Shown here one piece after another: positions 15,722-36,102 of a DNA stretch of 64,000 bases; within the stretch, counting starts at the first letter, position 1, and every line of letters starts with the position of its first letter. The stretch comes from Paracidovorax avenae (GTDB lineage Bacteria; Pseudomonadota; Gammaproteobacteria; Burkholderiales; Burkholderiaceae_C). The notes under the pieces were generated by a model. It did no database searches and was not told the DNA's origin. It worked only from the letters and a program-made list of their open reading frames with translations. The position numbers and the translations under genes were made by a program. The stretch spans positions 2,453,501 to 2,517,500 of the forward strand of contig NZ_CP156079.1 in assembly GCF_040892545.1 (NCBI RefSeq), read 5' to 3'.

Positions 15722-16576
15722 TCACGGATGCCAGTGGCTGGCGCGCACGCCGGTGCCCCCGGGCGCTGCCGCGCTGCCGGCCAGCGCGTACGACAGCTGG
15801 TTGGCCGCCGCGACCACGGTCTGCGCAAGCGCCTCGAGCTTTTCCGCCTGCAGCCGCGATGCGGGCCCCGAAATGCACACCGAGCCCAGCAGCCGCCAGT
15901 GCATCCCGAACACCGGTGCGGAGACCGTCGCCACGCCCTGTTCGCGCTCGCCGATGGACCAGTGGTATCCGCGCTGGCGGATGCGTTCGTACTCCGTGCC
16001 TGGCGCGCCGGAGAAGGCCAGGATCACGCGGCCCGGCGATCCCCGGTCCAGCGGAAGGCCTTCGCCCATGCGGGCATGGTGCCGCAGGGCCTGGGGGCCT
16101 TCCACGCGCACGAGGCAGGTGCGCACCTCGCCTTCCCGCACATAGAAGGCCGCGCTCTCTCCGGTGGCCTGCGTGAGGGCGCGCAGCGCCGGCTCCAGCA
16201 CGTTCTGCACGTCGAAGCCCGCCTGGTAGCGCGCGCCCAGCCAGCCCGCGGCGGGCCCCAGCCGCCAGTCGCCGTCCTCGCGCTGCACCAGGTACCCGGA
16301 CTGCGCCAGCGTGCGCGCGAGCCGCAGCACCGTGGTCTTGTGCAGCGCGCAGCGCCGGCTCAGTTCGGCGAGAGACAACCGGGATTCCCCCACGGCGAAG
16401 GCCGCGAGCACCTGCAATGCGCGCGTGACGGCGGTGACGCCGCCGTCGCGGGCGGTGGCGGGCGGCTCGGCGCCGCCGGCGTCGGAGGGCGATGCCTGCG
16501 GAGTGGATACGGGCGAAGGGGAGGGGGGCGGAGCGGCGGAGATGGGCCGGGGTCGGGTGCGGGAAGGGTTGCTCAT
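15722..16576 (-). CDS. IclR family transcriptional regulator (island, left copy)
   Basis: 284 residues. A Pro/Ser-rich N-terminal extension is followed by the IclR winged helix (LAELSRRCALHKTTVLRLAR), then the GAF-like effector domain with GESAAFYVREGEVRTCLVRVEG. It ends in HWHP, shared with two other IclR proteins of this island, which points to duplication. It is divergent from the first Bug gene with a 123-bp spacer that carries direct repeats (see 16588). IclR proteins commonly respond to aromatic or organic-acid intermediates; the effector here is unknown. Confidence 0.9.
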   Translation of the reverse strand: MSNPSRTRPRPISAAPPPSPSPVSTPQASPSDAGGAEPPATARDGGVTAVTRALQVLAAFAVGESRLSLAELSRRCALHKTTVLRLARTLAQSGYLVQREDGDWRLGPAAGWLGARYQAGFDVQNVLEPALRALTQATGESAAFYVREGEVRTCLVRVEGPQALRHHARMGEGLPLDRGSPGRVILAFSGAPGTEYERIRQRGYHWSIGEREQGVATVSAPVFGMHWRLLGSVCISGPASRLQAEKLEALAQTVVAAANQLSYALAGSAAAPGGTGVRASHWHP

Positions 16577-16587
16577 GGCAGTATGCG

Positions 16588-16623
16588 TTGCATTGTGCGA
16601 AACATCATTGTATGCAGCGAAAC
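16588..16623 (+). promoter_or_regulatory. Candidate promoter and direct repeats before the first Bug gene
   Basis: TTGCAT at 16588-16593 and TATGCA at 16611-16616 are 17 bp apart, a plausible sigma-70 pair reading toward the Bug gene at 16700. The heptamer GCGAAAC occurs at 16597-16603 and again at 16617-16623, exactly 20 bp apart, which is two helical turns and would put bound regulator on one face of the DNA over the -10 region. These could be sites for the divergent IclR protein. Confidence 0.35.
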
Positions 16624-16699
16624 GTTTTTCTAAAGTCGCATCACGCCGGGCCTGCACCGCCACGGCGCCGGGCCGACAAACACAACGGAGACAACCGAC

Positions 16700-17707: not shown

Positions 17708-17736
17708 TTCCGTCCGCCGCAATCCGACGCTGACGC

Positions 17737-18660: not shown

Positions 18661-18693
18661 ATTCCCTTCACAACAACCACACAGAGACAAGCC

Positions 18694-19731: not shown

Positions 19732-19799
19732 AGCCGCAGCCGTTCCTCCCGCGCTCTTTTTTCTTCTCCTCTTTCTCCATCGCATTGGAAACAACCACC

Positions 19800-21418: not shown

Positions 21419-21553
21419 CCGGCGAAAGACCGGCGGTGACAGGAGGGCGCGCCGCAGGTGCGCGCCCGATCCGGGGCCGGGCCCGTGTCCGGCCCCGGAG
21501 CAGAACGAAAACACGAAGAGGCGGCCTTGCGCAGCCCTGGACCGGAGACATCC

Positions 21554-22567: not shown

Positions 22568-22613
22568 AGCCGCCACGCGCGTTCGCCTCACACACCGAAG
22601 GAGACAGATCCCC

Positions 22614-23585
22614 ATGACCCGCATGACATTCCCCCTGGCCGCCGCGCTCGTGCTGGCCTGCACCGCCATGGGCGTGCAGGCGCAGCAGGCCTATCCCGAC
22701 AAGCCCGTCAAGATCGTGGTGCCCTATCCGCCAGGCGGTGCCGTGGACCAGGTGACCCGCCGCATCGCGCAGAAGCTCACCGAGCAGACCGGCCAGAGCT
22801 TTTTCGTGGAGAACAAGGCCGGTGCCACCGGCACCATCGGTGCGGCGCAGGTGGCGCGCTCGCCTGGCGACGGCTACACGCTCATGGCCAACGACACGAC
22901 CTACTCGATCCTCCCGCAGGTCTTCAGGAAGCTGCCCTGGGACCATGCGCAGGACCTCGTGCCCGTGGCCGGCTTCAATTTCGCACCCACCGCGGTGGTG
23001 GTGGCGGCCGGCTCGCCATTCAAGACGCTGGGCGAGATGGTGGCCTATTCGCAGGCCCATCCCGGCAAGCTGAACTACGGCACCGGCGGCGCCGGCACCA
23101 TGCCGCACTTCGCCACCGCGGCACTGGAGGGCGCCAGCGGGTTGAAAGCCACGCACGTGCCATTCAAGGGCGCGGGCGAGGCCACGATGGCGCTGCTGAG
23201 CGGCACCATCGACTTCCAGATCGCCTCCACCCCCGGCGTGATGGGGCAGGTGCGGGGTGGCAAGGTGCGGCTGCTGGCCGTGAGCGGCGACCAGCGCCTC
23301 AAGGCGCTGCCCGACGTGCCCACCTTCGCGCAGGCCGGCGTGCCGGGCTACAAGGTCGTCAACTTCACGGGGCTGTGGGCTCCGCGCGGTACGCCCGGGC
23401 CCGTGCTGGAAAAGCTCCGCAGCGAGATCGCCACGGCCATGGCCAGCAGCGACGTGCAGGCGTTTGCCGACGATCTGGGCGCGGTGCCCCGCGTGGTAAG
23501 CGGCAAGGCGTTCAGCGACAAGCTCCAGGCCGATGGCCAGCTGTGGGAAGCCGTGGCCGCCAGGGTGAGCATCGACAAGCAGTGA
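22614..23585 (+). CDS. Bug (TTT-family) solute-binding protein 4
   Basis: 323 residues with a signal peptide to about 23 (GVQAQ). Mature motifs are YPDKPVKIVVPYPPGGAVD and PFKGAGEATMALLSGT. A GAAGGAGA ribosome-binding site at 22599-22606 precedes the ATG. It sits tandem with Bug 3 and is followed 29 bp later by the metallo-beta-lactamase lipoprotein gene. Confidence 0.9.
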   Translation: MTRMTFPLAAALVLACTAMGVQAQQAYPDKPVKIVVPYPPGGAVDQVTRRIAQKLTEQTGQSFFVENKAGATGTIGAAQVARSPGDGYTLMANDTTYSILPQVFRKLPWDHAQDLVPVAGFNFAPTAVVVAAGSPFKTLGEMVAYSQAHPGKLNYGTGGAGTMPHFATAALEGASGLKATHVPFKGAGEATMALLSGTIDFQIASTPGVMGQVRGGKVRLLAVSGDQRLKALPDVPTFAQAGVPGYKVVNFTGLWAPRGTPGPVLEKLRSEIATAMASSDVQAFADDLGAVPRVVSGKAFSDKLQADGQLWEAVAARVSIDKQ

Positions 23586-23614
23586 CCGCCTCGGCCCGGC
23601 CAGGAGACAAGACC

Positions 23615-24631
23615 ATGATCCACCGACTTTCCTGCGGACTGCTCGCCGGAGCACTCGCTGCCGCCCTATGGGGCTGCGGCAGTTCGCCGCCGGCCGCGCA
23701 GCGGCCATCCGAGGCCAGCATTGCGGCCCATGTCGCAGCGGCCACGCGCGCCGCAGGCAGCGACCTGGGCGAGGTGCTGAAGCTGTGCAAGCCCGTGCCC
23801 GCCGTCCGGCCGGGGCAGGGCGAGGATGCCGACCACGGGCTGCGAGCCCTCATCGACCGTCCGGCACCGCCGCCCGGCCGTGCCTTCGACAACCTCTACT
23901 TCGTGGGCGGCGACTGGGCCAGTGCCTGGGCCATCGACACGCCCGAGGGCATCATCCTGATCGATGCGCTCAACAACGAGGCCGAGGCCGCCGCGCTGAT
24001 CGAGGGCGGCCTGCGCAAGCTGGGACTGGATCCGGCGCGCATCCGCTACATCGTGGTCACCCACGGCCATGGCGACCACTACGGCGGTGCGCCCTACCTG
24101 GCGCACAAGTACGGTGCCCGCGTGGTGATGAGCGACACGGACTGGACGATTATGGAGACGGGGCTGGAGTTCCGCGCGGCCGTCTGGGGCGCGCCGCCGC
24201 GGCGCGATATCACGGTCAGGGATGGAGACCGCCTGACGCTGGGTGGCACGAGCCTGACGCTGTACATGACGCCGGGCCACACCTGGGGCACGCTCTCGCC
24301 GGTGTTCGACGTCACCTGGCTGGGCCGCAGGCACCGCGTTCTGCTGTGGGGTGGCACCGGCTTCAATTTCGGTGCCGACATTCCGCGCATGGAGGCCTAT
24401 GGCCGCTCCACGCAGCGCATGGCGCAGGTGGCGCGCACCGAAGGCATCGACGTGATGCTGTCCAACCATTCGCGCGTGGACGGCTCCCAGGGCAGGCTGG
24501 CCCGGCTGCGCGAGGCGGGCGGCACCGGCCCCAACCCCTTCGTGGTGGGCGAGGCGACGGTCGAGCGCACGCTCACCGTGATGAACGAATGCTCGCTCGC
24601 CCAGCGAGACCGCTTTGCGCTGCTGCCCTGA
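23615..24631 (+). CDS. Metallo-beta-lactamase-fold lipoprotein
   Basis: 338 residues. LWGC at 18-21 is a lipobox, so the mature protein should be lipid-anchored and periplasmic. The zinc motif HGHGDH is at 150-155, followed by TPGHTWG and a late SNHSRVDG histidine, complete for a two-metal MBL hydrolase. Overall it resembles the subclass B3-like group, but the long N-terminal linker and its place between Bug genes argue for a lactone or ester hydrolase rather than an antibiotic resistance enzyme. The frame is open upstream to 23375 only as a shadow of Bug 4. Confidence 0.85.
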   Translation: MIHRLSCGLLAGALAAALWGCGSSPPAAQRPSEASIAAHVAAATRAAGSDLGEVLKLCKPVPAVRPGQGEDADHGLRALIDRPAPPPGRAFDNLYFVGGDWASAWAIDTPEGIILIDALNNEAEAAALIEGGLRKLGLDPARIRYIVVTHGHGDHYGGAPYLAHKYGARVVMSDTDWTIMETGLEFRAAVWGAPPRRDITVRDGDRLTLGGTSLTLYMTPGHTWGTLSPVFDVTWLGRRHRVLLWGGTGFNFGADIPRMEAYGRSTQRMAQVARTEGIDVMLSNHSRVDGSQGRLARLREAGGTGPNPFVVGEATVERTLTVMNECSLAQRDRFALLP

Positions 24632-24647
24632 CGCGCTGGATACCGCC

Positions 24648-25640
24648 ATGTACCTCTCCTCCTTCAAGACCTCGCGCATTCTTGCCGCTGGTGTGTTCGC
24701 CGCCTGGGCATTCGCCGCCACGGCCCAGGCGCAGGCGCAGGTCTATCCCGCCAAGCCCGTCAGGCTGGTGGTCGGCTTCGCGGCCGGCGGCCCCACCGAC
24801 GTGGTGGCGCGCGCCTTCGCCGACCATGCCAGCCGCACGCTGGGCCAGCCGTTCATCATCGACAACAAGCCCGGCGCCAACACGATCCTGGCCGCGCAGG
24901 CGGTGGCCAGCGCGCCGGCGGACGGCTACACACTGCTCTTCGGTGCCACCAACCACACGATGATCCCGGGGCTCTACAGCGGCCGGGTGAAGTTCGATGC
25001 GGTCAAGTCCTTCAGGCCGCTGTGCACCGTGGCCACCAGCCCCACGGTGCTGGTGGTGGGGCAGGGCCTGCCGGTGAAGACGCTGGCCGACTACATGGCC
25101 CGCGCCCGCCAGGAACCGGGCCGCCTCACGGCGGGCACCGCGGGCGTGGGCAGCTCGGGCCACTTCGCCACCGAGATGTTCGCGCGGGCCAATGGCCTGA
25201 AACTCAACCACGTGCCTTACAAGGGAGCAGCGCCCGTGGTCACCGACCTGATGGGTGGTCAGCTCGACAGCTCGTTCGCCACGCTGGGCTCGGTGCTGCC
25301 GCAGATTCGCAGTGGCAAGCTGGCGGCGCTGGCCGTGGCGTCGCCCCGGCGGTCGTCGCTGCTGCCGGACGTGCCCACCTTCGCCGAAGCCGGCGGCGGC
25401 AACTACTCCGCCGATGCGTGGTACGGCGTGCTGGCGCCAGCCGGCCTCCCCGAGCCCGTCGCGCTGCAACTGGAAAAGGTGGCGCGCGAATTCGCAGGCA
25501 GCGCCGCTGCTGCCGAGAAGCTGCGCGGCCTGGGGCTCGACGCGGACTCCACCTGCGGCAAGGCCTTCACCGCGCAGGTGGAGCGCGAAGTCGCCACCTA
25601 CACGCAGATCGCCCGTGATCTGGACCTGAAGGCGGAGTAG
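24648..25640 (+). CDS. Bug (TTT-family) solute-binding protein 5
   Basis: 330 residues, signal peptide ending AQAQAQ near 31. Family blocks are YPAKPVRLVVGFAAGGPTD and PYKGAAPVVTDLMGGQ. The VVGFAAGG variant replaces the usual VVPYPPGG and may change ligand contacts. It starts 16 bp after the MBL gene, so co-transcription is likely. It has a single mature cysteine near residue 302 (STCGKAF). Confidence 0.9.
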   Translation: MYLSSFKTSRILAAGVFAAWAFAATAQAQAQVYPAKPVRLVVGFAAGGPTDVVARAFADHASRTLGQPFIIDNKPGANTILAAQAVASAPADGYTLLFGATNHTMIPGLYSGRVKFDAVKSFRPLCTVATSPTVLVVGQGLPVKTLADYMARARQEPGRLTAGTAGVGSSGHFATEMFARANGLKLNHVPYKGAAPVVTDLMGGQLDSSFATLGSVLPQIRSGKLAALAVASPRRSSLLPDVPTFAEAGGGNYSADAWYGVLAPAGLPEPVALQLEKVAREFAGSAAAAEKLRGLGLDADSTCGKAFTAQVEREVATYTQIARDLDLKAE

Positions 25641-25714
25641 CCGCGCACTGCCTGCGCCCGCTGCCACCGCATCGGGACACCTCTTTCCGTTGATTGAAAA
25701 CCCAGGGAGACCCC

Positions 25715-26671
25715 ATGCACCGTTTCATCAAACCCCTCGTCGCGGCCATCGCCCTGGCCGCCGGACTGGCCCACGCCGCCTTCCCGGAGCGCCCCATCAC
25801 CATCGTCGTGCCCTATGCCCCGGGAGGCGCCGCCGATGCGGTGGCGCGCGTGATCGCCACGCGCATGGGGGCCAAGCTGGGCGGCAGCGTGATCGTGGAC
25901 AACAAGCCGGGCGCCAGCGGCACCATCGGCGCGAGCTTCGTGGCCAAGGCGCAGGCCGACGGCTACACCATGCTGTACGACGCCACGCCGTACTCTATCA
26001 ATCCGCACCTGTTCCCCAGGATGCCGTATGCGGCCAGCGCGCTCCAGCCGCTGTCGCTGGTGCTGCTGGCGCCCAACGTGCTCATCGTGAAGGCCGATTC
26101 GCCCCTCAAGAATGTGAACGACCTGATCGCCCGGGCCAAGGCGCAGCCGGGCAAGCTCAACTTCGCCTCCGGCGGCAGCGGCACGGTGCAGCGCCTGGCC
26201 TCGGAGCTGTTCCGCCAGAAACTGCAGCTCGACATGGTGCACGTGCCCTACAAGAGCGGCGGCCCCGCGATCGCCGACGTGATGGGCGGGCAGGTGGACT
26301 TCATGTTCAGCACCGTGGCGGCCTCCTATCCGCTGGTCGCGGGCGGCAAGCTGCGCGCGCTGGCCGTGTCCGCTCCCGAGCGCTCCAGGCGCCTGCCCGA
26401 CGTGCCCACCGTGGCCGAGACGGTGATCCCCGGCTACGAGGCCTACGAATGGAACGGCGTGTTCCTGCCCGCCGGCACGCCCGCGCCCGTTGCCGCGCAG
26501 TTGCAGCAGGCACTGACCGAAGTGCTGAAGGAAGACGAGGTGCGCCAGCGCCTGAGCGACCTGGGCGCGCAGCCCATCGGCTCCACGCCGGCCGAGTTCG
26601 CCGCCTTCCTGAAAAAGGAAGATGCAAAGTGGGGCGAGGTAGTGCGCAAAGGCAACATCCAACTCGACTAG
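25715..26671 (+). CDS. Bug (TTT-family) solute-binding protein 6
   Basis: 318 residues from ATG 25715, preceded by AGGGAGA; an upstream TTG at 25694 is less likely. The signal peptide ends HAAF near 25. Motifs are FPERPITIVVPYAPGGAAD and PYKSGGPAIADVMGGQ. It is followed after only 6 bp by amidohydrolase B, the same Bug-amidohydrolase pairing as at 16700-18660. Confidence 0.9.
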   Translation: MHRFIKPLVAAIALAAGLAHAAFPERPITIVVPYAPGGAADAVARVIATRMGAKLGGSVIVDNKPGASGTIGASFVAKAQADGYTMLYDATPYSINPHLFPRMPYAASALQPLSLVLLAPNVLIVKADSPLKNVNDLIARAKAQPGKLNFASGGSGTVQRLASELFRQKLQLDMVHVPYKSGGPAIADVMGGQVDFMFSTVAASYPLVAGGKLRALAVSAPERSRRLPDVPTVAETVIPGYEAYEWNGVFLPAGTPAPVAAQLQQALTEVLKEDEVRQRLSDLGAQPIGSTPAEFAAFLKKEDAKWGEVVRKGNIQLD

Positions 26672-26677
26672 AACACG

Positions 26678-27580
26678 ATGAATCTGCCCGACCTCTCCGA
26701 ACCCGTGCCCCATTCGGTAGGAACGAACCGTCCCTCGCGCGCGCTGCCCACGCTGGCCTGCGACAGCCACATGCACATCTTCGACCGGCGGTTCGCGCCG
26801 TCGCCGCACTGGCCGCGCACGCCGCCCGATGCGCCGGTGGCCGCCTACCGCCGGCTGCAGCAGCGGCTGGGCACGTCGCGCGCGGTGGTGGTCACGCCGT
26901 CCACCTACGGCACCGACAACGCCTGCACGCTCGACGCGCTGGACCAGCTGGGCGACAGCGCGCGCGGCGTGGCCGTGGTCGGGCAGGACGTCTCCGGCGC
27001 CGAGCTGTCCCGCCTGGCGGCGCGGCGGGTGCGGGGGCTGCGCGTCAACTTCGTCTCGCCGCAGTCCTGGGGCGAGACCACGCCCGACATGCTGGCCAAC
27101 CTGGCGCGGCAGGTGGCGGGCCACCCGGACTGCGGGGGCTGGCACATCCAGGTGTTCGCGCACCCGGAGCAGATCGTGGCGCTGGCGCCCCTGCTGCGGG
27201 CATTGCCCCTGCCACTGGTCATCGACCACCTGGGGCGCATCGACCCGGCCGGAGGCACGGCCGGCGCGGCCTACAGCGTGCTGCGGGGGCTGCTGGACGC
27301 CGGCAACACCTGGGTCAAGCTCTCGGGCGCCTACATGCGCTCCACGGTGCACGGTCCCGGCTATGCGGATACGCTGCCCCTGGGCCGCGCCCTGGTGCAG
27401 GCCGCGCCGCAGCGGCTGGTGTGGGGCAGCGACTGGCCTCACACCACCGAGGCGCCCGGCACCGTGGACGATGCGGCGCTGGTGGACCTGCTGCGTGCCT
27501 GGGCCGGCTCGGACGCCGCGATGGATGGCATCCTGGTCGACAACCCGGCGCGGCTCTACGGTTTCGGCGTCGCGGCCTGA
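26678..27580 (+). CDS. Amidohydrolase family protein B (LigI/galactarolactone isomerase-like)
   Basis: 300 residues, clearly homologous to amidohydrolase A: CDSHMHIFDRRF near 28, TPSTYGTDN, RGLRVNFVSPQ and VWGSDWPHTTE near 250. COG3618-type enzymes hydrolyse or isomerise lactones of dicarboxylic acids. It is packed between Bug 6 and an SMP-30-type lactonase gene, which supports a lactone substrate. A and B differ enough that they may act on different lactones or isomers. Confidence 0.82.
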   Translation: MNLPDLSEPVPHSVGTNRPSRALPTLACDSHMHIFDRRFAPSPHWPRTPPDAPVAAYRRLQQRLGTSRAVVVTPSTYGTDNACTLDALDQLGDSARGVAVVGQDVSGAELSRLAARRVRGLRVNFVSPQSWGETTPDMLANLARQVAGHPDCGGWHIQVFAHPEQIVALAPLLRALPLPLVIDHLGRIDPAGGTAGAAYSVLRGLLDAGNTWVKLSGAYMRSTVHGPGYADTLPLGRALVQAAPQRLVWGSDWPHTTEAPGTVDDAALVDLLRAWAGSDAAMDGILVDNPARLYGFGVAA

Positions 27581-27611
27581 GCGCTGTTTCCAAGGAAAGG
27601 AACCCCTCTTC

Positions 27612-28532
27612 ATGTTCTTGCTGCAAGCCCCCCAGATCCGCGAGCTCGAAGCCTTCACGGCCATGCCCGCATCCCTGCGGCGCCCGGAACGCAGCGACTG
27701 GGCCGACGCCAACCGCGGCGGCACGGTCACCGATTCGTTCCTCGAAGGCCCGGTGTTCGACGAGGCCGGCAACCTCTACGTGAGCGACATCCCCTGGGGC
27801 CGCATCTTCCGCATCGACCCGCAGGGTGCCTGGAGCCTCGTGGCCGAATACGACGGCGAGCCCAACGGCATGAAGTTCCTCGACGCCGGCACGCTGCTCA
27901 TCACCGACTACAAGAACGGGCTGATGCGGCTGGACGTCGCCACCGGCCAGGTAACCCCCTATCTGCAGCGCCGCAACAGCGAGCGCTTCAAGGGCGTGAA
28001 CGACCTGGTCTTCGATGCCGAGGGCAACCTCTACTTCACCGACCAGGGGCAGAGCGGCCTGCACGATCCGTCCGGGCGCCTCTACCGCCTGCGCCCCAAC
28101 GGCCAGCTCGACCTGCTGCTGCACAACGTGCCCAGTCCCAACGGCGTGGCGCTCTCGCCCGACGGCCGCGTGCTGTACCTGGCCGTCACGCGCGGCAACT
28201 GCGTCTGGCGCGTGCCGCTGCTGCCCGACGGCAGCGTGGCCAAGGTGAGCCAGTTCTTCACGTCCTACGGGCCCAGCGGCCCGGACGGTCTGGCCGTGGA
28301 CGCCGAGGGGCGCGTGCTGGTCGCCAACCCGGGCCTGGGGGTGGTCTGGGTGCTCAATGGCCGGGCGGAGCCGGTGCAGGTGCTGCGCGGCGTGCCCGGC
28401 AGCTCCACCACCAATCTCGCCTTCGGCGGGGAAGGGCGGCGCACGCTGTACGTGACCGACTCCACGCATGGCCGCGTGCTGCGCGCGTCCATGGACGCGC
28501 CGGGGCTCCCGCTGCACGGGGCCGCGCGCTGA
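27612..28532 (+). CDS. SMP-30/gluconolactonase family protein
   Basis: 306 residues of a six-bladed beta-propeller lactonase. Visible blocks are EGPVFDEAGNLYVSDIPWGRIFRI, VNDLVFDAEGNLYFTDQG, SPNGVALSPDGRVLYLAVT and DGLAVDAEGRVLVANPG; the metal-binding Glu of EGP, Asn of PNG and Asp of DGL are kept. It has no signal peptide and should hydrolyse sugar-acid or similar lactones in the cytoplasm. ATG 27612 has AAAGGAACC upstream. The IclR gene starts 3 bp after its stop. Confidence 0.88.
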   Translation: MFLLQAPQIRELEAFTAMPASLRRPERSDWADANRGGTVTDSFLEGPVFDEAGNLYVSDIPWGRIFRIDPQGAWSLVAEYDGEPNGMKFLDAGTLLITDYKNGLMRLDVATGQVTPYLQRRNSERFKGVNDLVFDAEGNLYFTDQGQSGLHDPSGRLYRLRPNGQLDLLLHNVPSPNGVALSPDGRVLYLAVTRGNCVWRVPLLPDGSVAKVSQFFTSYGPSGPDGLAVDAEGRVLVANPGLGVVWVLNGRAEPVQVLRGVPGSSTTNLAFGGEGRRTLYVTDSTHGRVLRASMDAPGLPLHGAAR

Positions 28533-28535
28533 GCC

Positions 28536-29267
28536 ATGCCGCAGCCGGGGGCCAGGGAGCCGGTCCAGTCCGTGGCGCGCGCGCTGGCGGTGCTGCGGGC
28601 GTTCTCCGGCGACGAGGCCTTCGTGCCGCTGGCCGAACTGGCGCGGCGCACCGGCCTGCACAAGCCCACCGTGCTGCGCCTGGCGCGCACCCTGGCCGAC
28701 GAGGGGTTCCTCGTGCAGCGCGCTGCCGATGGCGCATGGCGCCTGGGGCCCGGCGCGGGAGCGATCGGTGCACGCTACCAGGCGCAATTCGACGTCAATG
28801 CCATCATCGAGCCGCTGCTCATGGAGCTGTCCGCGGCCACGGGCGAGAGCGCGTCCTTCCATGTTTACGAGGGCGACATCCGCAGCTGCCTCGTGCGCTG
28901 CGAAGGGCCGCGCGGCATACGCCGCCATGTGCGTCCCGGCGAGCTGCTGCCGCTGGAGCGCGGCTCGGCCGGCCGCGTGATCCTGGCCGCCCTCGGTGAG
29001 CACGGCGCCCTCTACGACCGGATCCGGCGCGAAGGCTACGGCATCACGCGCGGCGAGCGCAGCGCGGGCGCGGCCAGCGTGTCGGCCGCCGTGCAGGGCG
29101 CGCAGCGCGCGGTGCTGGGCTCGGTCAGCATCTCCGGCCCCATCGACCGCCTGACCCAGGCGCTGCTGCAGGCCTGTGCACCGGCCGTGGTGCGTACGGC
29201 GGCGCAGCTGTCCTGGAAGCTGGGGGGCGTCTCGGTGGCGGCGCTGCGCTCCACCTGGCATCCGTGA
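28536..29267 (+). CDS. IclR family transcriptional regulator (island, middle copy)
   Basis: 243 residues. Winged helix LAELARRTGLHKPTVLRLAR near 33-52, effector domain with GESASFHVYEGDIRSCLVRCEG, and C terminus STWHP. The recognition helix is almost identical to that of the 33851 copy, so both should read the same DNA site. It starts 3 bp after the lactonase gene, at the end of that operon, and is followed by the inverted repeat at 29293 in front of Bug 7. Confidence 0.9.
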   Translation: MPQPGAREPVQSVARALAVLRAFSGDEAFVPLAELARRTGLHKPTVLRLARTLADEGFLVQRAADGAWRLGPGAGAIGARYQAQFDVNAIIEPLLMELSAATGESASFHVYEGDIRSCLVRCEGPRGIRRHVRPGELLPLERGSAGRVILAALGEHGALYDRIRREGYGITRGERSAGAASVSAAVQGAQRAVLGSVSISGPIDRLTQALLQACAPAVVRTAAQLSWKLGGVSVAALRSTWHP

Positions 29268-29292
29268 TGCATCAGGGCCCGCATCCAGCCGC

Positions 29293-29309
29293 GTTACGCC
29301 TGCCGTAAC
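29293..29309. promoter_or_regulatory. Candidate IclR operator, copy 1
   Basis: GTTACG-CCTGC-CGTAAC, a perfect inverted repeat (arms extend to 8 bp) centred 86 bp before the Bug 7 start codon. The same 17-bp pattern recurs at 33778 and, with one mismatch, at 34724. Confidence 0.6.
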
Positions 29310-29386
29310 GCGCTTCGCGGCGCTCCGCTTCGTTCCTACGATCGCGCCGCGGCCCCACGTCGAGGGCCTTCAGGAGACACACCGTG

Positions 29387-30364
29387 ATGACGAAGCGAGC
29401 CCTTTTCGGCGCAGCCCTGTGCGCGTGCACTGCCTTGATCGCCCCGCCGGCCCTGGCCCAGGCGGACCCCTATCCCGCAAAGCCCATCCGCGTGGTCGTT
29501 CCGTTCGCCGCGGGCGGCCCTGCCGACGTGATCGCCCGCGAAATGGCGCAATCGCTCGGCAGGGACCTGGGGCAATCGCTGGTGGTGGAGAACCTGGGCG
29601 GTGGCGCCGGCGTACCGGCGCTGAACACCGTGGCGCGGGCGCCAGCCGACGGCTACACGCTGCTGTTCGCGGCATCGGGCAACGTGGTGATCCAGCCGTT
29701 GCTGACCAGGAACCGCGTGGACGTCCTCACGCAGCTCGCGCCCGTGGGCATGGTGACCACCAGTCCGCACGTGCTGGTGGTGTCCAGCAAGCTGCCCGTG
29801 CGCACGGTGAAGGAACTGACCGATTACGCCCGGGCGCATCCCGGAGCGGTGAATTTCGCGTCCGCCGGCGTGGGCGGGCTGGCACACCTGGGTGCCGAGA
29901 TGTTCAAGCGTGCTGCGGGCATCGACGCGCGGCATGTGCCCTACAAGGGAACCTCCCAGGCGATGACCGACCTGGCCGCGGGCGAGGTCCAGGCCATGTT
30001 CAGCAGCCTGCCCTCGATGAAGGGAATGATCGACAAGGGCGCGATCCGCGTGGTGGGGGTCACCGGGCCGTCCACCTCCGCCGCGTACAAGGGCATTCCC
30101 CTGATCGGCAAGGCGGGCGTGCCCGGTTTCGAATACACGACGTGGTATGCCCTGTACGCGCCGGCGGGCACGCCCGCACCGGTCATCGCCCGGCTGGGCA
30201 AGGCCCTGTCCGGGCTGGCGGCCGACAAGGCGTTCGACAGCCGGCTGGAGGCCCAGGGCGTGGACCTGCACGTGACCTCGGCCAGGGAGCTCGGCGACAT
30301 CACGCGCAAGGAGTCGGCAGGGTGGGACAAGCTGATCCGCAAGTCCGGCATCGAGCTGAACTGA
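29387..30364 (+). CDS. Bug (TTT-family) solute-binding protein 7
   Basis: 325 residues from ATG 29387; a GTG at 29384 adds one codon. CAGGAG lies ten bases upstream. The signal peptide ends LAQAD near 26. Motifs are YPAKPIRVVVPFAAGGPAD and PYKGTSQAMTDLAAGE. It opens the two-gene unit with the LigJ-like hydratase and lies just downstream of operator copy 1. Confidence 0.9.
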   Translation: MTKRALFGAALCACTALIAPPALAQADPYPAKPIRVVVPFAAGGPADVIAREMAQSLGRDLGQSLVVENLGGGAGVPALNTVARAPADGYTLLFAASGNVVIQPLLTRNRVDVLTQLAPVGMVTTSPHVLVVSSKLPVRTVKELTDYARAHPGAVNFASAGVGGLAHLGAEMFKRAAGIDARHVPYKGTSQAMTDLAAGEVQAMFSSLPSMKGMIDKGAIRVVGVTGPSTSAAYKGIPLIGKAGVPGFEYTTWYALYAPAGTPAPVIARLGKALSGLAADKAFDSRLEAQGVDLHVTSARELGDITRKESAGWDKLIRKSGIELN

Positions 30365-30405
30365 CCCCCCCGGGGCCCGCGCGCCCTGCCACGGAGACCA
30401 CCTCA

Positions 30406-31431
30406 ATGATCATCGATTGCCACGGCCACTACACCACCGCGCCCAGGGCGCTCAACGACTACCGCGCCCGGCAGGTGGCGCTGCTGGACGAGCCCGGCGC
30501 GCCCGCGCTGAGCCCCGACGTGCGCATCAGCGACGACGAGATCCGCGCCAGCCTGGAGCCGCACCAGATCGCCACGCAGCGCCTGCGGGGCGTGGACATG
30601 ACGATCTTCTCGCCCATGGCCGGCGCCATGGCCCACCACGTCGGCAACGCGGTGACCAGCCGCCACTGGGCGCAGGCCTGCAACGACCTGATCCACCGCG
30701 TCACCCGGCTCTACCCGCGCGAATTCGCCGGCGTATGCCAGTTGCCCCAGTCACCGCGCTCCGGCATGGCGGAGTGCGTGGCGGAACTGGAGCGCTGCGT
30801 GAACGGGATGGGATTCGTGGGCTGCAACATCAACCCCGATCCGTCCGACGGCTACTGGACCGATCCCCCGATGACGGACCGCTACTGGTATCCGCTCTAC
30901 GAGAAGATGGTCGAACTGGACGTGCCCGGCATGGTGCATGTGAGCTGCTCGTGCAACCCCAACTTCCACCATACGGGCGCGCACTACCTGAACGGCGACA
31001 CCGCCGCCTTCATGCAGTTCGTGCTGTCGGACCTGTTCAGGGACTTTCCCACGCTGCGGTTCGTGATACCGCACGGCGGCGGCGCCGTGCCCTACCACTG
31101 GGGCCGCTACCGCGGGCTTGCCCTGCAGCTGGGACGCCCGCCGATGGAGGACCTGCTGCGCAATGTGTTCTTCGACACCTGCGTCTATCACCAGCCGGGG
31201 ATCGACCTGCTGTTGAAGGTGATCCCGGCGGACAACGTGCTCTTCGCCTCGGAGATCTTCGGCGCCGTGAAGGGGGTGGACCCCGAGACGGGCTTTCCCT
31301 TCGACGACACACGCCGTTATGTCGATGCGGTGCAGGGCGTCTCCGATGCCGAGCGGCACCTGCTGTTCGAGCGCAACGCGCGCCGCGTGTATCCGCGGCT
31401 GGATGCGCTGCTGCGCGCGCAGGGGCGTTGA
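30406..31431 (+). CDS. 4-oxalomesaconate hydratase-like amidohydrolase (LigJ type)
   Basis: 341 residues. It starts MIIDCHGHYTTAPRAL and shows the LigJ pattern throughout: RGVDMTIFSPMAGAMAHH, CNINPDPSDGYWT, IPHGGGAVPYHWGR, FFDTCVYHQPGIDLL and FASEIFGAVKG. In the protocatechuate 4,5-cleavage route LigJ hydrates 4-oxalomesaconate to 4-carboxy-4-hydroxy-2-oxoadipate, the substrate of LigK/RraA-type aldolases such as the one at 19800. CHGH at 5-8 and the HGGG histidine are likely metal ligands. It is 41 bp after Bug 7 and convergent with Bug 8. Confidence 0.88.
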   Translation: MIIDCHGHYTTAPRALNDYRARQVALLDEPGAPALSPDVRISDDEIRASLEPHQIATQRLRGVDMTIFSPMAGAMAHHVGNAVTSRHWAQACNDLIHRVTRLYPREFAGVCQLPQSPRSGMAECVAELERCVNGMGFVGCNINPDPSDGYWTDPPMTDRYWYPLYEKMVELDVPGMVHVSCSCNPNFHHTGAHYLNGDTAAFMQFVLSDLFRDFPTLRFVIPHGGGAVPYHWGRYRGLALQLGRPPMEDLLRNVFFDTCVYHQPGIDLLLKVIPADNVLFASEIFGAVKGVDPETGFPFDDTRRYVDAVQGVSDAERHLLFERNARRVYPRLDALLRAQGR

Positions 31432-31454
31432 CCGCGCGCGCATGCGCCCGTGTC

Positions 31455-32459
31455 TCAATCCGCCGTCAGCAACCCGGAGTGGATGAGTGCTGCATAGGTC
31501 GCTGCCTGGCGCGCCAGGAACTGCTCGAAATCCGCCGTTGCCATGTGCGTCGGCACGCCGCCGATGTCCTCCACGCGCTTGCGCGTGGCAGCGTCGGCGA
31601 GCACGGCGTCGTTGGTGGCGACGATCCGGTCCACGATGGCCTGCGGGACATTGCGCGGCGCCATGACGGCGGTGAACGGCGCGATGTCCACCTCCGGCTG
31701 GCGCGCCTCGGCCATCGTGGGCACGTCGGGCAGCGAGGGCACCCGCTGCGGAAAGACCACGCCCAGCGCCCGCAGCTTGCCACCCTTGACGAGCTGCAGG
31801 GCGGAGGGCAGGTCGGTGGCCACGGCGTCCAGCTGCCGGCCCAGCAGATCCTGCACGGCGGGGCCGGCGCCCTTGTAGCCGGCAATCACGAACGGGGTGC
31901 CGAGCGCCTTCTGGATCTGCAGGATATTGACGTGGCCCGCGGTGCCGTTGCCAGGGTGGCCGATCCGCACTTCCCCCGGGTGCGCCCTGGCGTGAGCCAC
32001 GAAGTCCTGGTAGGTCTTGAAAGAGGATTCGGCATTCACCACCAGCACGCCCGGCACCAGCGTGAGCAGGGCCACGGCCTTCATGTCCTTGAGCCCGTAC
32101 GCGGCCTTGCCCGCGAGTTGCCAGCTGGAGACGATGGGCGCCGTCGTGCCCATGAGCAGCGTGTAGCCGTCGGGCTCCGAGCGCACCACCTGCAGCGCGC
32201 CGATCATGCCGCCCGCGCCCCCGCGGTTGTCGATCACGAAAGGCTGGCCCAGCCGCTGGGCGTAGGCGTCCGCGAAGATGCGAGCGGTGCTGTCGGCGTT
32301 GCCCCCGGGCACGAAGGGCACGACCACCTTGACGGGACGGGCGGGGTAGCCGTCCTTCGCGGATTGGGCCCGGGCAGGCTGCAGGGGGGCGAGCGAGAGG
32401 GCGAGCGGGGTCGCGAGCGTGGCGGACAGGGCGGCGCGGCGGGTGATCCGTGGTGGCAT
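31455..32459 (-). CDS. Bug (TTT-family) solute-binding protein 8
   Basis: 334 residues with a twin-arginine-like leader (TRRAALSATLATPLALSLA) ending ARAQ near 32. Motifs are YPARPVKVVVPFVPGGNAD and GYKGAGPAVQDLLGRQ; the usual Pro of PYKG is replaced by Gly. It is second in an operon after the 2-hydroxyacid oxidase gene (18-bp gap), suggesting the bound ligand is related to the oxidase substrate. Confidence 0.9.
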   Translation of the reverse strand: MPPRITRRAALSATLATPLALSLAPLQPARAQSAKDGYPARPVKVVVPFVPGGNADSTARIFADAYAQRLGQPFVIDNRGGAGGMIGALQVVRSEPDGYTLLMGTTAPIVSSWQLAGKAAYGLKDMKAVALLTLVPGVLVVNAESSFKTYQDFVAHARAHPGEVRIGHPGNGTAGHVNILQIQKALGTPFVIAGYKGAGPAVQDLLGRQLDAVATDLPSALQLVKGGKLRALGVVFPQRVPSLPDVPTMAEARQPEVDIAPFTAVMAPRNVPQAIVDRIVATNDAVLADAATRKRVEDIGGVPTHMATADFEQFLARQAATYAALIHSGLLTAD

Positions 32460-32477
32460 GGATGTCTCCTGTAAGTT

Positions 32478-33692
32478 TCAAGCGGGGATGAGATGGGCGG
32501 GATGCAGTTCGGCCAGCGAGGACACGCCCAGCAGGGCCATGTCGCGGTGGATTTCGCCCTGCAGCAGGCCGATGGCATGCGCCACGCCGGCCTGGCCACC
32601 CACCGCCGCGGCATAGGCCATCGGGCGGCCGACGAATACGTGGTCCGCGCCCAGGGCCAGGGCCTTGAGCACGTCGGTGCCGCGGCGCACGCCGCTGTCG
32701 AGCATCAGGGCCATGCCGCCCTTCACGCGTGCGGCCTCCTGCAGGACGCGCAGCGGCGGTACCGTGCCGTCGAGCTGCCGGCCTCCATGGTTGGACAGGA
32801 TCACGCCGTCCGCGCCGGCCTGCCCGGCGCGCTCCACGTCCGCCGCCGAAATGACGCCCTTGACGACCAGCCGGCCCTTCCATTGCCTGCGGATGAGGGC
32901 GAGGTGCTCCCATTGGAGGTGATCGCGCAGGCCGAACTGGCGCACCACGCTGCGCGAAATGATGGGAACGCCCCGTCCCGCGCCGGCGTTCTCGAAATGC
33001 GGCATGCCCCGCTCCAGCAGCGTGCGGGCGAGCGTGCCCACCAGCCAGCGCGGGCGCACCAGCCCGTCCCATGCCAGCCGCGGGCCGGGCCGCAGCGGCG
33101 TGGAAAAGCCCACGCGCACATTGTTCTCGCGGTTGGCGAGCGTGGCCGTGTCCACCGTGACCACCAGCGTCCGGAAACCCGCCCGAGCGACCCGCTGCAC
33201 CAGCCCCTCGATGTGCGCCGGCTCACCCGGGATGTAGGCCTGGAACCAGCCACAGGTGGGCGCTGCGCGCGCCACGTCCTCCAGCCGGGTCAGCGAGGCG
33301 CCGCTCAGCACGAACGGGATGCCCGCCGCCTCGGCGGCGCGTGCCAGCACCAGGTCGCCCTCGAACGCGAACAGGGCGCACAGGCCCATGGGGGCGATGC
33401 CGAACGGCGCGCGGTAGCGCTCGCCCATCAGCGTGGTGGCCTGGCTGCGGCCCGAAACATCGACCAGCACGCTGGTACGGAACAGCCATTGCCGGAAGGC
33501 GGCATGGTTGGCCTGCAGCGTCACGTTGTCTTCCACGCCGCCCTGCAGGTAACCGAAGATCGGCCGTGGCAGCGTGCGGCGCGCGGCGGCCTCGAAGTCG
33601 TTCAGCGACAGAATGCCGCGCAGGCGGCGGGGCAGGTGGGCGCGGGCATTCGGCGCGGGGCCGAACTGCGGGCGGGAAGGCTGGGTGGTCAT
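32478..33692 (-). CDS. FMN-dependent alpha-hydroxyacid oxidase/dehydrogenase
   Basis: 404 residues of the lactate/glycolate oxidase family. Conserved FMN-site blocks are PFGIAPMGLCALF, VLSGASLTRLEDVA, VTVDTATLANRENN, VVKGVISAADVERA with Lys278, and SNHGGRQLDG with catalytic His302, Arg305 and Asp308. It oxidises an L-2-hydroxy acid to a 2-oxo acid; substrate not determined. Together with the D-2-hydroxyacid dehydrogenase at 20483, the island can handle both stereochemical series. An IclR-site inverted repeat lies 85 bp upstream of its start. Confidence 0.9.
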   Translation of the reverse strand: MTTQPSRPQFGPAPNARAHLPRRLRGILSLNDFEAAARRTLPRPIFGYLQGGVEDNVTLQANHAAFRQWLFRTSVLVDVSGRSQATTLMGERYRAPFGIAPMGLCALFAFEGDLVLARAAEAAGIPFVLSGASLTRLEDVARAAPTCGWFQAYIPGEPAHIEGLVQRVARAGFRTLVVTVDTATLANRENNVRVGFSTPLRPGPRLAWDGLVRPRWLVGTLARTLLERGMPHFENAGAGRGVPIISRSVVRQFGLRDHLQWEHLALIRRQWKGRLVVKGVISAADVERAGQAGADGVILSNHGGRQLDGTVPPLRVLQEAARVKGGMALMLDSGVRRGTDVLKALALGADHVFVGRPMAYAAAVGGQAGVAHAIGLLQGEIHRDMALLGVSSLAELHPAHLIPA

Positions 33693-33777
33693 GGTGTCGA
33701 AGGGTCCGGGGTCCGTGTCGCCTGCGCTGCGCAGGACGTGGCCGCATTGGAAAACGCCCGGATGCCCGCCGCAACGC

Positions 33778-33794
33778 GTTACGCATTGCGTAAC
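33778..33794. promoter_or_regulatory. Candidate IclR operator, copy 2
   Basis: GTTACG-CATTG-CGTAAC in the 158-bp gap between the IclR gene and the hydroxyacid oxidase gene. The repeat is perfect and its arms extend to CGTTACGC/GCGTAACG. It is placed to control the oxidase-Bug 8 operon. Confidence 0.65.
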
Positions 33795-33850
33795 GGAAGC
33801 TTGGAGCTATGCGAGGCGGTATGCGGCGGGTTCCCGGGCGCGGAGTTGCA

Positions 33851-34672
33851 TCACGGGTGCCAGGTCGCACGCAGCGCGGTGGCCGGCATGCCGCCGAGTG
33901 CCGCGCCCAGCTGCCGTGCCGCCGCCACGGTGTGGGGCGCATGGGCGCGCAGCACGGCCGTGGTCAGCCGCTCCACGGGGCCCGAGGTGCTGACGGCGCC
34001 CAGCACCGCGCCTTGCGCGCCGCGTACGGCAGCCGCCACGCTGGCCGCGCCGGTACTGCGTTCGGCCCGGGCGTGGTGGTAGCCGCGGCGGCGGATGCGC
34101 TCGTACAGGTCGCCGGGCTGACCGAGCGCCGCCAGGATGACGTGGCCGGGCGCGCCCAGCTCCAGGGGCAGCAGTTCGCCGGAGCGCGGATGGTCGGGCC
34201 GCGCGTTGGGCCCGTCGAAGCGCATGAGGCAACTGCGCAGATTGCCCTCATGCACGTAGAACGACGCACTTTCCCCGGTGAGCATGGACAGCTTCTGCAG
34301 GATGGGTTCGATGGCCGATTCCGCATCGAACTGCGCCTGGTAGCGCGAGCCGATCCAGCCGGCCGACGGCCCCAGCCGCCAGGCCCCGTCCTCGCGCTGC
34401 ACCAGGAAGCGCGAGAGCGCGAGCGTGCGCGCCAGCCGCAGCGCCGTGGGTTTGTGCATGCCCGTGCGCCGGGCCAGCTCGGCGAGCGGCAGGAACTGTT
34501 CGTCACCATGGAACGCCGTGAGCAGGCCCATCGCGCGATGCACGGCCTGCACATGGTCGCGGGAAAGCTCCGGCGGCGCGCCGCCGTCCGGCTGCAGCAG
34601 GGAGCGCACCGGCGTGCTGGCGGGCGCCGAAGCCGTGCGGGAGGGCGGCCGTTTCGCCGCGTGCCTGGACAT
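33851..34672 (-). CDS. IclR family transcriptional regulator (island, right copy)
   Basis: 273 residues. Winged helix LAELARRTGMHKPTALRLAR, effector domain with GESASFYVHEGNLRSCLMRFDG, C terminus ATWHP. It is closely related to the IclR proteins at 15722 and 28536. Operator copies lie on both sides of its gene: one between it and the oxidase gene, and one upstream in the divergent promoter shared with the lactonase gene at 34809. Autoregulation plus control of both neighbours is the simplest reading. Confidence 0.9.
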   Translation of the reverse strand: MSRHAAKRPPSRTASAPASTPVRSLLQPDGGAPPELSRDHVQAVHRAMGLLTAFHGDEQFLPLAELARRTGMHKPTALRLARTLALSRFLVQREDGAWRLGPSAGWIGSRYQAQFDAESAIEPILQKLSMLTGESASFYVHEGNLRSCLMRFDGPNARPDHPRSGELLPLELGAPGHVILAALGQPGDLYERIRRRGYHHARAERSTGAASVAAAVRGAQGAVLGAVSTSGPVERLTTAVLRAHAPHTVAAARQLGAALGGMPATALRATWHP

Positions 34673-34723
34673 GCCGCGATGGTAGCGCCGGCCGGCGTGC
34701 CGCCGCGTTCCATGGCCGCAAGC

Positions 34724-34740
34724 GTTACGCAGTGCGTAAT
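34724..34740. promoter_or_regulatory. Candidate IclR operator, copy 3
   Basis: GTTACG-CAGTG-CGTAAT, one mismatch from the other two copies, in the 136-bp divergent promoter between the IclR gene (52 bp away) and the lactonase gene (69 bp away). Confidence 0.6.
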
Positions 34741-34808
34741 GGATTGGCGGGCGGGCGAGGCTTCGCCATCATCACCGGTCCTGCCGACGGCCCGCCCACA
34801 GAAATGCC

Positions 34809-36035
34809 ATGAACCCACCTGATCGCCCGGCCGGCCCCCTTGCCGAACCGGGGGCTGGACCGGCGCTCCCCACGGAGTCTTTTTTCGCGGCGGTCGGCGA
34901 TCGCCTGGTCCGCCATGCGCTGGATGCGCAGGGCGGCATGCGCGAGATCGACCGGCTGGCCATGCCCTGCGGCGTGCAGTTCGCCTGCCTCGACCGCGAG
35001 CGCGGTCTGCTCTACGTCGCTTGCAGCAATGGCGGCGTCGGCCGCCCGGGAGACCGTCACCGGCTGGCCCGGGTGGCCGTGGACGGCCCCATGCGCCTGC
35101 TGGAAGCGCCCGCAGCGCTGCCGTACCGGCCCATCCATGCCGCGCTCGATCCGGCCGGGCGCCGCCTGCTCATCGCCTACAACCTGCCGGCGGCATTGAC
35201 CGTGCATCCGCTGGACGAAGCGGGCAGGGTGGGAGAGTGCCTCGGCCCGTTCGAAGGCGAGGAACTCGTGGGCTGGTTCCCGCACCAGGTCCTTCCCATG
35301 CCCGGCAGCGACGAGGTGCTGCTGACCTGTCGCGGCGACGACGCCACGGCGGTGCGCGCGGAAAATCCCGGGTCGCTCAGGCGCCTGCGCATCGGGCCGC
35401 AGGGCGGTGCGCGGCCCATGCAGACAGTCGCGCCCTCGGGGGGCTTCGGCTTCGGCCCGCGCAACTGTGCTTTCCACCCAGCCGCGCCCTGGCTGTACGC
35501 AGTGCTGGAGCGGCAGAACGCGCTGGCGGTGTTTTTCATCCGTGGCGGGCGCATCGCCGCGCAGCCTGCCCACACGGTGGGCATGCTGCAGCGACCGGAT
35601 CGCATCCACCGCCCTCAACTGGCCGGGGCGCTGGCGCTGCATCCGGGCGGCGGATTCGCGTACGCCGTGAACCGCTCGCATGCCGTGGTGCAGGAGGGCG
35701 CGCACACCGTCTGGGCCGGAGGCGAGAACAGCATCGTCGTCTTCCGCCTGGACACGCGCACGGGCGAGGCGGCGCCGGTACAGTGCCAGCCCCTGCAGGG
35801 CCTGCACGCACGCTGCATCGCCCTCGCGCACGGCGGCCGGCTGCTCGTGGCGGCCATCCGGCAGGCCAGCGCGCAGCGCACCCCGGAGGGCATCCGGCAC
35901 TGTCCCGCCGGCTTCAGTACCTTTCGCATCGGGCAGGACGGCTGCCTGCAGCCTCTGGGGCACCACGCCGTGGAGGTCGGGGCCGAGCAGATTTTCTGGG
36001 CCGGCTGCAGCGAAGGACTGCCGTGCAGCGTCTGA
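34809..36035 (+). CDS. Lactonase family protein (seven-bladed propeller, PF10282-like)
   Basis: 408 residues with repeated propeller blades typical of 6-phosphogluconolactonase/YbhE-like proteins: FACLDRERGLLYVACS, HAALDPAGRRLLIAYN, NCAFHPAAPWLYAVLER and a C-terminal GLHARCIALAHGGRLLVAA. No signal peptide is seen. It should act on a lactone, consistent with the other lactone-directed enzymes in the island, though several family members are carboxy-muconate-cyclising enzymes instead. Divergent from the right IclR gene, with an operator copy in between. Confidence 0.8.
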   Translation: MNPPDRPAGPLAEPGAGPALPTESFFAAVGDRLVRHALDAQGGMREIDRLAMPCGVQFACLDRERGLLYVACSNGGVGRPGDRHRLARVAVDGPMRLLEAPAALPYRPIHAALDPAGRRLLIAYNLPAALTVHPLDEAGRVGECLGPFEGEELVGWFPHQVLPMPGSDEVLLTCRGDDATAVRAENPGSLRRLRIGPQGGARPMQTVAPSGGFGFGPRNCAFHPAAPWLYAVLERQNALAVFFIRGGRIAAQPAHTVGMLQRPDRIHRPQLAGALALHPGGGFAYAVNRSHAVVQEGAHTVWAGGENSIVVFRLDTRTGEAAPVQCQPLQGLHARCIALAHGGRLLVAAIRQASAQRTPEGIRHCPAGFSTFRIGQDGCLQPLGHHAVEVGAEQIFWAGCSEGLPCSV

Positions 36036-36102
36036 TCCCGAGCCACCTGGGCCATTGCCGTTCCGTCGAAGTTGTTTGTTAAAAGCTATGAAAGAAATTT
36101 GA

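Follow-up and report, generated by a model that had tools for sequence, protein, structure and literature searches.

A probable common operator, GTTACG-N5-CGTAAC, for two paralogous IclR regulators in Paracidovorax avenae

A stretch of 64,000 nucleotides from the genome of Paracidovorax avenae (NCBI RefSeq assembly GCF_040892545.1, contig NZ_CP156079.1, positions 2,453,501 to 2,517,500; the whole stretch is called the window below) carries three near-identical 17-bp inverted repeats of the form GTTACG-N5-CGTAAC in the vicinity of two genes for IclR-family regulators, iclR_A and iclR_B. The repeats, referred to here as candidate operators 1 to 3, and the genes around them are located as follows (window coordinates).

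28536..29267, plus strand: iclR_A, IclR-family regulator, helix HKPTVLRLA (Pfam HTH_IclR and IclR_C)
29293..29309, plus strand: candidate operator 1, GTTACGCCTGCCGTAAC, exact match, ahead of bug7-ligJ and 25 nt past the iclR_A stop
29384..30364, plus strand: bug7, TctC/Bug solute-binding protein (Pfam and PDB sequence comparison)
30406..31431, plus strand: ligJ, 4-oxalomesaconate hydratase family (E 6e-147 to 2gwg)
31455..32459, minus strand: bug8, TctC/Bug solute-binding protein (Pfam)
32478..33692, minus strand: FMN-dependent 2-hydroxyacid dehydrogenase/oxidase, nearest solved relative (S)-mandelate dehydrogenase
33778..33794, minus strand: candidate operator 2, GTTACGCAATGCGTAAC (minus strand), exact match, between iclR_B and the FMN oxidase gene
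33851..34672, minus strand: iclR_B, IclR-family regulator, helix HKPTALRLA (Pfam HTH_IclR and IclR_C)
34724..34740, no strand assigned: candidate operator 3, GTTACGCAGTGCGTAAT, one mismatch, between the divergent iclR_B and lactonase genes
34809..36035, plus strand: lactonase-fold (7-bladed propeller) protein (Pfam and PDB sequence comparison)

The three repeats had been reported in the original prediction, and their description was borne out: two copies are exact, the third departs from the pattern only at its last base (T for C), and all three are intergenic. Apart from that last base, the 12 symmetric positions are identical in the three sites. No further copy with two or fewer mismatches was found elsewhere in the 64-kb window, in agreement with the earlier remark that the motif is missing from the other promoters of the island. 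The gene assignments (Bug7, LigJ, hydroxyacid oxidase, Bug8, lactonase and two IclR proteins) hold upon comparison with Pfam and PDB. As judged from their domains, IclR_A (HTH_IclR, 54.1 bits; IclR_C, 65.9 bits) and IclR_B (39.0 and 45.7 bits) are IclR-family transcription factors, both domains scoring above the gathering cut-offs of 22 and 24 bits, respectively.

In the whole genome (5,625,582 bases), the same three sites are the sole matches with at most one mismatch, and 35 more places are found at the two-mismatch level. The outcome that the original prediction had named as refuting, a motif scattered at random across the genome, is thus not observed. The 16 other genomes of the genus contain no exact match and 10 one-mismatch matches in total. 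What sets the three sites apart from chance occurrences is the presence of two exact copies and their clustering within 5.4 kb (about 3e-6 under random placement); their count, in itself, is ordinary (see below).

The site is associated with the regulators across genomes. Among 399 family genomes, 8 encode a homologue of IclR_A or IclR_B (E ≤1e-80) and 18 contain the exact site. Of the 8 carriers, 7 have an exact site beside iclR; of the 391 non-carriers, 11 contain an exact site (Fisher p 8e-10; the window's own genome is counted as a carrier and relatedness is ignored). The eighth carrier, G087, has half-degenerate sites instead of exact ones. The position of operator 1 is the same in Acidovorax sp. 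MR-S7 and in genomes G085, G190 and G388. The position of operator 2 is kept in all nine other module-B loci examined (modules are defined below), with a degenerate distal half in two of them, and a site between iclR_B and the divergent gene, as for operator 3, is present in seven other aligned loci.

Several figures count against a regulatory role and, in part, for the alternative that the palindromes arose by chance or belong to a small repeat element. When scaled by word number (a hand calculation), the 35 two-mismatch places lead one to expect about 2 one-mismatch matches and about 0.06 exact ones, so that a genome-wide count of three with at most one mismatch does not exceed the chance level. 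In the window itself, dinucleotide shuffling produces at least three matches with up to two mismatches in 5 of 100 cases, which makes the window test weak when taken alone. The exact word is present in the 11 non-carrier genomes, that is, without these regulators, and 2 of the 11 sites adjoin a distant IclR gene whose product has a different helix, HRAKAYR. Rough gene calls place two of the 11 inside a called gene and nine between called genes, one of these nine having no called gene nearby. Against this alternative, the site retains its place beside iclR in several genera and three families, amid intergenic DNA that has diverged, and it travels with the regulator, with no more copies in the genome at one mismatch or fewer. 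An origin by chance or from a repeat element was discarded on the grounds of genome-wide uniqueness and conserved linkage to iclR, and we rate it as highly improbable. The proposal that the palindromes are IclR operators of a small regulon, already made in the original prediction, is strongly supported by comparative genomics, and it very likely describes their role.

Some observations were made on sites outside the main set. In loci L091 and L092, near 4064-4085, an exact GTTACGATTAGCGTAAC-type site lies ahead of an unrelated IclR gene (HRAKAYR) and a divergent gene, so that the same operator word is paired with another helix. L097 (4045-4094) and L098 (4022-4071) contain GTTACGTATAACGTAAC followed, 33 bp on, by GTTACGAGACTCGAAAC; an IclR relative was not detected within the 8-kb stretch around this pair.

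The genes of the window fall into two modules. Module A consists of iclR_A, a site, bug7 and ligJ; module B of a bug and/or lactonase gene, a site, iclR_B, a second site, the FMN oxidase gene and, usually, a Bug gene (bug8 here). Loci of relatives were mapped with the window's proteins; L056 (26% identity) is excluded from all counts. The modules are adjacent in the window and in Acidovorax sp. MR-S7 (L051) and occur separately elsewhere. Module A is present without IclR_B in G085, G190 and G388, each having one IclR match at E ≤1e-80 and a single exact site, located after iclR_A and ahead of bug7-ligJ. Neither such an IclR nor an exact site was found in the congeners G267 and G331; a third congener, G797, has no such IclR (IclR search only, no site scan). 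Conversely, module B is present without IclR_A in G084 and G406, where the single such IclR is accompanied by two exact sites, both flanking iclR_B. Module B also occurs in L053 (Achromobacter aloeverae), L054 and L055 (Variovorax sp. CF079), as seen at the locus level only, and in G087, with its two half-degenerate sites at the same two places. In G938 and G1029, which belong to another family, both modules are found together, in rearranged form and with an IclR_A bearing PKPT. An order-wide search with IclR_A (399 genomes, E ≤1e-65) yielded 13 matches in 11 genomes: IclR_A itself, the window's IclR_B and 11 IclR_C-like proteins (see below), none of these 11 with HKPT. No plasmid-borne iclR_B was found at E 1e-60 in 72,556 plasmid records.

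These distributions bear on whether the two regulators share their operators. In the window, cross-recognition appears likeliest because IclR_A alone and IclR_B alone each accompany a GTTACG operator and because the 17-mer of the A operator, GTTACGCCTGCCGTAAC, recurs as an operator beside iclR_B in the B-only genome G084. We infer that the operator type is probably common to IclR_A and IclR_B, and that both proteins probably bind all three sites. The alternative is that of two insulated regulons, IclR_A acting at 29293 only and IclR_B at 33778 and 34724 only, with the central five bases, the flanks or a one-base difference in promoter spacing providing the discrimination. The five central bases are indeed often different between A and B operators and could keep the two regulators apart: they read CCTGC or CCAGC in all five module-A loci and CAnnG at the FMN-oxidase side in five of eight module-B loci. 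In addition, the predicted -35 box follows the operator after 4 bp in A and after 3 bp in B (see below), and the modules are apart in most loci examined. A further reservation attaches to the separate modules themselves: A or B is called absent where none of the few top candidates scored in a genome (6) matched at E ≤1e-80. Set against insulation are the divergent operator of G084, which has CCTGC in a 17-mer identical to the A site, the helix cores of the window's IclR_A and IclR_B, whose sole difference is Val/Ala after HKPT, and the near-perfect identity of the symmetric operator positions. On balance, insulation seems rather unlikely. As to the single circuit put forward in the original prediction, a merging through the shared operator is likely in view of the common helix core and the identical 17-mers; the part that needs amending is its unity, since the circuit is made up of two modules that have an IclR each and occur apart in other genomes.

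A third paralogue, IclR_C, and the diverged operator that appears to serve it provide a point of comparison not considered in the original prediction, which had also not noted that operator 1 begins immediately downstream of iclR_A (25 nt past its stop; see above).

15722..16576, minus strand: iclR_C, third paralogue, helix HKTTVLRLA (open frame, 284 aa)
16587..16603, no strand assigned: candidate sister operator of IclR_C, GTTGCATTGTGCGAAAC, GTTKCG-N5-CGMAAC-like

In a tree of 30 rows, A forms a group of 5 rows (support 99/98) and B one of 8 (99/99), joined together with support 100/100; the remaining 17 rows are C. HKPT is found in all 13 A and B rows and HKTT in every one of the 17 C rows; rows were picked by a helix pattern that allowed P, T or S at the variable position. 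Six order-level relatives that fail the pattern (L103, L105, L106, L108, L109 and L110) are omitted from the tree; four of them have HKTT, each with T at position 4 of a one-mismatch site, while L108 has HNTT and no site with up to two mismatches and L110 has HRST and two-mismatch candidates only. Pro occupies the variable helix position in 119 of the 120 homologues listed (of 337), the remaining one being without the helix. Close relatives of IclR_C are found in 13 of the 16 other genomes of the genus, and GTTKCG-N5-CGMAAC or near variants lie directly ahead of the start of C genes. The scan left position 4 free, and the base there is G or T in 16 of 16 distinct C sites and also in the four additional sites of HKTT proteins. 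The genome has four occurrences of the word GTTKCR-N5-CGMAAC, including that at 16587.

By our own alignment of the helices, the Pro/Thr difference between A/B and C falls at position 29 in the numbering of Suvorova and Gelfand, which, according to an extract of their survey (PMC8222616; all statements on this source derive from that extract), corresponds to Ser48 of TtgV, a residue that contacts DNA, and to Thr57 of PobR, which is critical for function. In contrast to TtgV and PobR, IclR_A and IclR_B have Pro, rather than Ser or Thr, at this place. The helix-to-base correspondence was rejected as proof of a recognition rule: the single HKPT/HKTT split in the tree amounts to one event, and the HmgR operator (see below) already has A at position 4. 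There is also an exception in Achromobacter, whose divergent operator reads GTTTCG in one half, with T at position 4, despite an IclR_B with HKPT; in G087, no site closer than three mismatches to GTTACG-N5-CGTAAC was found for the HKTT copy. IclR_A proteins of the PKPT type (L123-L126) have a site with up to two mismatches in none of four bug7-ligJ modules, and the module-B sites persist in both of these loci that have B. A more tentative idea combines two suggestions: that paralogues responding to different effectors at one operator might turn the side-by-side modules into a two-input switch and that the Thr-Pro helix difference (HKTT vs HKPT), together with operator base pair 4 (G/T vs A), might insulate the pair from IclR_C, 12 kb away.

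In the window (16587-16630) and in L027-L039, the IclR_C operators look tandem, with a second CGAAAC half-site about 20 bp (two helical turns) on. This second half-site falls within the promoter predicted for the divergent bug gene and is strongly conserved across the genus.

Boxes resembling promoter elements are found at a fixed distance from the candidate operators.

29314..29319, plus strand: predicted -35 of bug7-ligJ, TTCGCG, 4 bp past operator 1 (position conserved, consensus weak)
29337..29342, plus strand: predicted -10 of bug7-ligJ, TACGAT, 17-bp spacer (TAC[CG]AT in 5/5 module-A loci)
33769..33774, minus strand: predicted -35 of the FMN oxidase operon, TTGCGG, 3 bp past operator 2
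33746..33751, minus strand: predicted -10 of the FMN oxidase operon, TCCAAT, 17-bp spacer (YCCAAT in 8/8 loci of the first set)
34744..34749, plus strand: predicted -35 of the lactonase gene, TTGGCG, 3 bp past operator 3
34767..34772, plus strand: predicted -10 of the lactonase gene, CATCAT, 17-bp spacer ([CG]AT[CG]AT in 8/8 loci)
34679..34684, minus strand: predicted -10 of iclR_B, TACCAT, 6 nt ahead of the ATG

The alignment comprised 21 structural-side promoters, 16 of them from module B (8 loci, two each). TTG is found 3 bp past the operator in all 16 module-B structural promoters and in none of the eight positions on the iclR side; at other offsets it occurs 9 times in 1152 positions. A -10-like hexamer follows 17-18 bp on, of the form [CG]AT[CG]AT before bug or lactonase and YCCAAT before the FMN oxidase gene (8/8 each). 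Module A has TT[CG]nnn after 4 bp and TAC[CG]AT 17 bp (four loci) or 18 bp (G388) farther. In G938 and G1029, examined afterwards, TTG is present at 3 bp in 6 of 6 structural promoters and absent at both iclR-side operators; these promoters, three in each genome, were read by eye at the promoter-proximal sites, out of 10 and 4 sites in all when up to two mismatches are allowed. As -10-like boxes they have GATCAT ahead of the lactonase gene, TTCAAT ahead of bug and TAAAGT ahead of the FMN oxidase gene. Some points detract from this picture. The YCCAAT pattern of the FMN oxidase promoter is not repeated in G938 and G1029 (TAAAGT), the -10 patterns were picked after the sequences had been seen, and orthologous promoters are non-independent samples. 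Furthermore, a promoter scan of 28000-36100 gave no consensus sigma-70 promoter; the -35 and -10 assignments are therefore based on conservation alone.

The TTGnnn box could instead be taken for a third half-site, as in the three-box operator of PcaU (PMC8222616). This proposal was rejected, the box being seen on the structural side only (16/16 vs 0/8). A -35 box is the simpler reading because of this one-sidedness and of the conserved AT-bearing hexamer at 17-18 bp; a double role, as -35 and third half-site, is possible.

On the iclR_B side, a -10-like box precedes the ATG by 6 nt; it reads TAYCAT in the window, MR-S7, CC_bin31 and Variovorax, and TACGAT in M21, and its distance to the operator ranges from 3 to 39 nt across loci. 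With the box in this position, iclR_B may yield a leaderless message. In G938, the operator is amplified in tandem: 4.9 perfect copies of a 24-bp unit precede the FMN oxidase gene (L123:6991-7108) and 3.6 imperfect copies of a 25-bp unit the lactonase gene (L123:11521-11609), the last copy alone abutting the TTG box. These arrays may serve cooperative binding or titration of the regulator.

An operator overlapping the -35 or the -10 would favour repression. With the spacing described above, the operator centre would lie near -47, a geometry that suggests activation of the structural genes; on this evidence activation is given a slight preference over repression. Under the repression model, apo-dimers beside the -35 would block RNA polymerase until released by a metabolite. 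The IclR family holds repressors, activators and dual regulators (PMC8222616), and some local features would suit a repressor: the IclR_C operator is about 10 nt before the iclR_C start codon, with the second half-site in the predicted promoter of the divergent bug gene, and in CC_bin31 and Variovorax a module-B operator is 3 nt before the predicted -10 of iclR_B. On the other side, the operator lies upstream of a -35-like hexamer and covers neither -35 nor -10 in 21 of 21 structural-gene promoters. Moreover, PobR of Agrobacterium tumefaciens binds the intergenic region between regulator and enzyme genes and, from there, activates the enzyme gene and represses its own (PMC12285266, an extract). 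Repression is accordingly considered somewhat doubtful. In the activation model, each IclR protein would bind the palindrome as a dimer; sitting directly ahead of the -35 hexamer, this dimer would switch on the structural genes when its C-terminal domain is occupied by a metabolite of the pathway, which might be a hydroxy- or oxo-polycarboxylate. Expression of iclR_B itself would also be under the control of the divergent operator at 34724. On the whole, it seems likely that one operator type and two paralogous IclR regulators join bug7-ligJ and the FMN oxidase-bug8-lactonase genes into one regulon. Both IclR proteins (genes at 33851 and 28536) had been singled out for testing in the original prediction, rightly in our judgement.

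The region between iclR_C and the main cluster contains further Bug genes together with genes for amidohydrolases, a 2-hydroxyacid dehydrogenase, an SMP-30 protein and an RraA-like aldolase. The last scores 165.5 bits, below the cut-off of 179 that applies to 4-carboxy-4-hydroxy-2-oxoadipate aldolase. The 16 kb from 16700 to 32459 hold at least eight TctC/Bug receptor genes; no membrane transporter subunit was found among 20 proteins examined from the window.

If the proposed regulon is correct, poorly assigned Bug receptors and hydrolases become part of a defined, testable unit in which a hydroxyacid oxidase, a 4-oxalomesaconate hydratase, a lactonase-fold protein and two receptors are tied to likely common inducers. 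The locus would also make it possible to ask, in a natural setting, how operator specificity is retained or lost among paralogous regulators, given a site common to A and B, a single helix residue and a single operator base pair that set C apart, and the PKPT A proteins of another family, which are without the site. The fixed distance from operator to promoter provides a simple rule for finding more targets.

The regulators were finally compared with known systems. BhcR (NF045644) and PcaR/PcaU/PobR (TIGR02431) are the best NCBIfam models for both proteins, yet membership was rejected, as the scores fall far below the cut-offs: 105.3 (IclR_A) and 81.6 bits (IclR_B) against 350 for the former, and 103.4 and 76.2 bits against 284.75 for the latter. 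Among the papers listed, none on this system was found by title or abstract opening, subscription papers being mostly outside the search, and a literature search on IclR paralogues sharing operators gave no match. COG3181 is a TctC-type COG. Suvorova and Gelfand (2021, PMC8222616) link COG3181 with IclR regulons and give GTTYCRYW3RYGRAAC as the consensus for the GTT-11-AAC subgroup of group-1 IclR operators. As in that subgroup, we find here a 17-bp odd-length palindrome with GTT...AAC ends, a regulator with HTH_IclR, a small local regulon and likely autoregulation. Operator 2 fits the consensus at 15 of 17 positions, the outliers being 4 and 14 (A and T, outside Y/R); base pair 4/14 is A/T in all three sites and, unlike in the subgroup as described in the extract, one operator accompanies two paralogues.

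An A at position 4 is not new to the IclR family, since the HmgR operator of Pseudomonas putida, ATTACGTTATTCGTAAT, which controls homogentisate genes (Table 1 of PMC8222616), has the identical core, TTACG-N5-CGTAA, present in all three operators. The outer base is G here and A in HmgR, and the neighbours here are bug, ligJ, FMN oxidase and lactonase genes rather than homogentisate genes; the two systems are likened by operator and gene context alone. The Agrobacterium PobR system (see above) resembles the 34724 site in having its operator between a divergent regulator and an enzyme gene, and a similar dual arrangement is proposed here; it differs, as far as the extract of PMC12285266 goes, in site sequence, in its 4-hydroxybenzoate pathway and in having one regulator. 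The comparison supports well the view that this regulon is a new one built on an already known kind of IclR operator, the shared operator being its interesting part.

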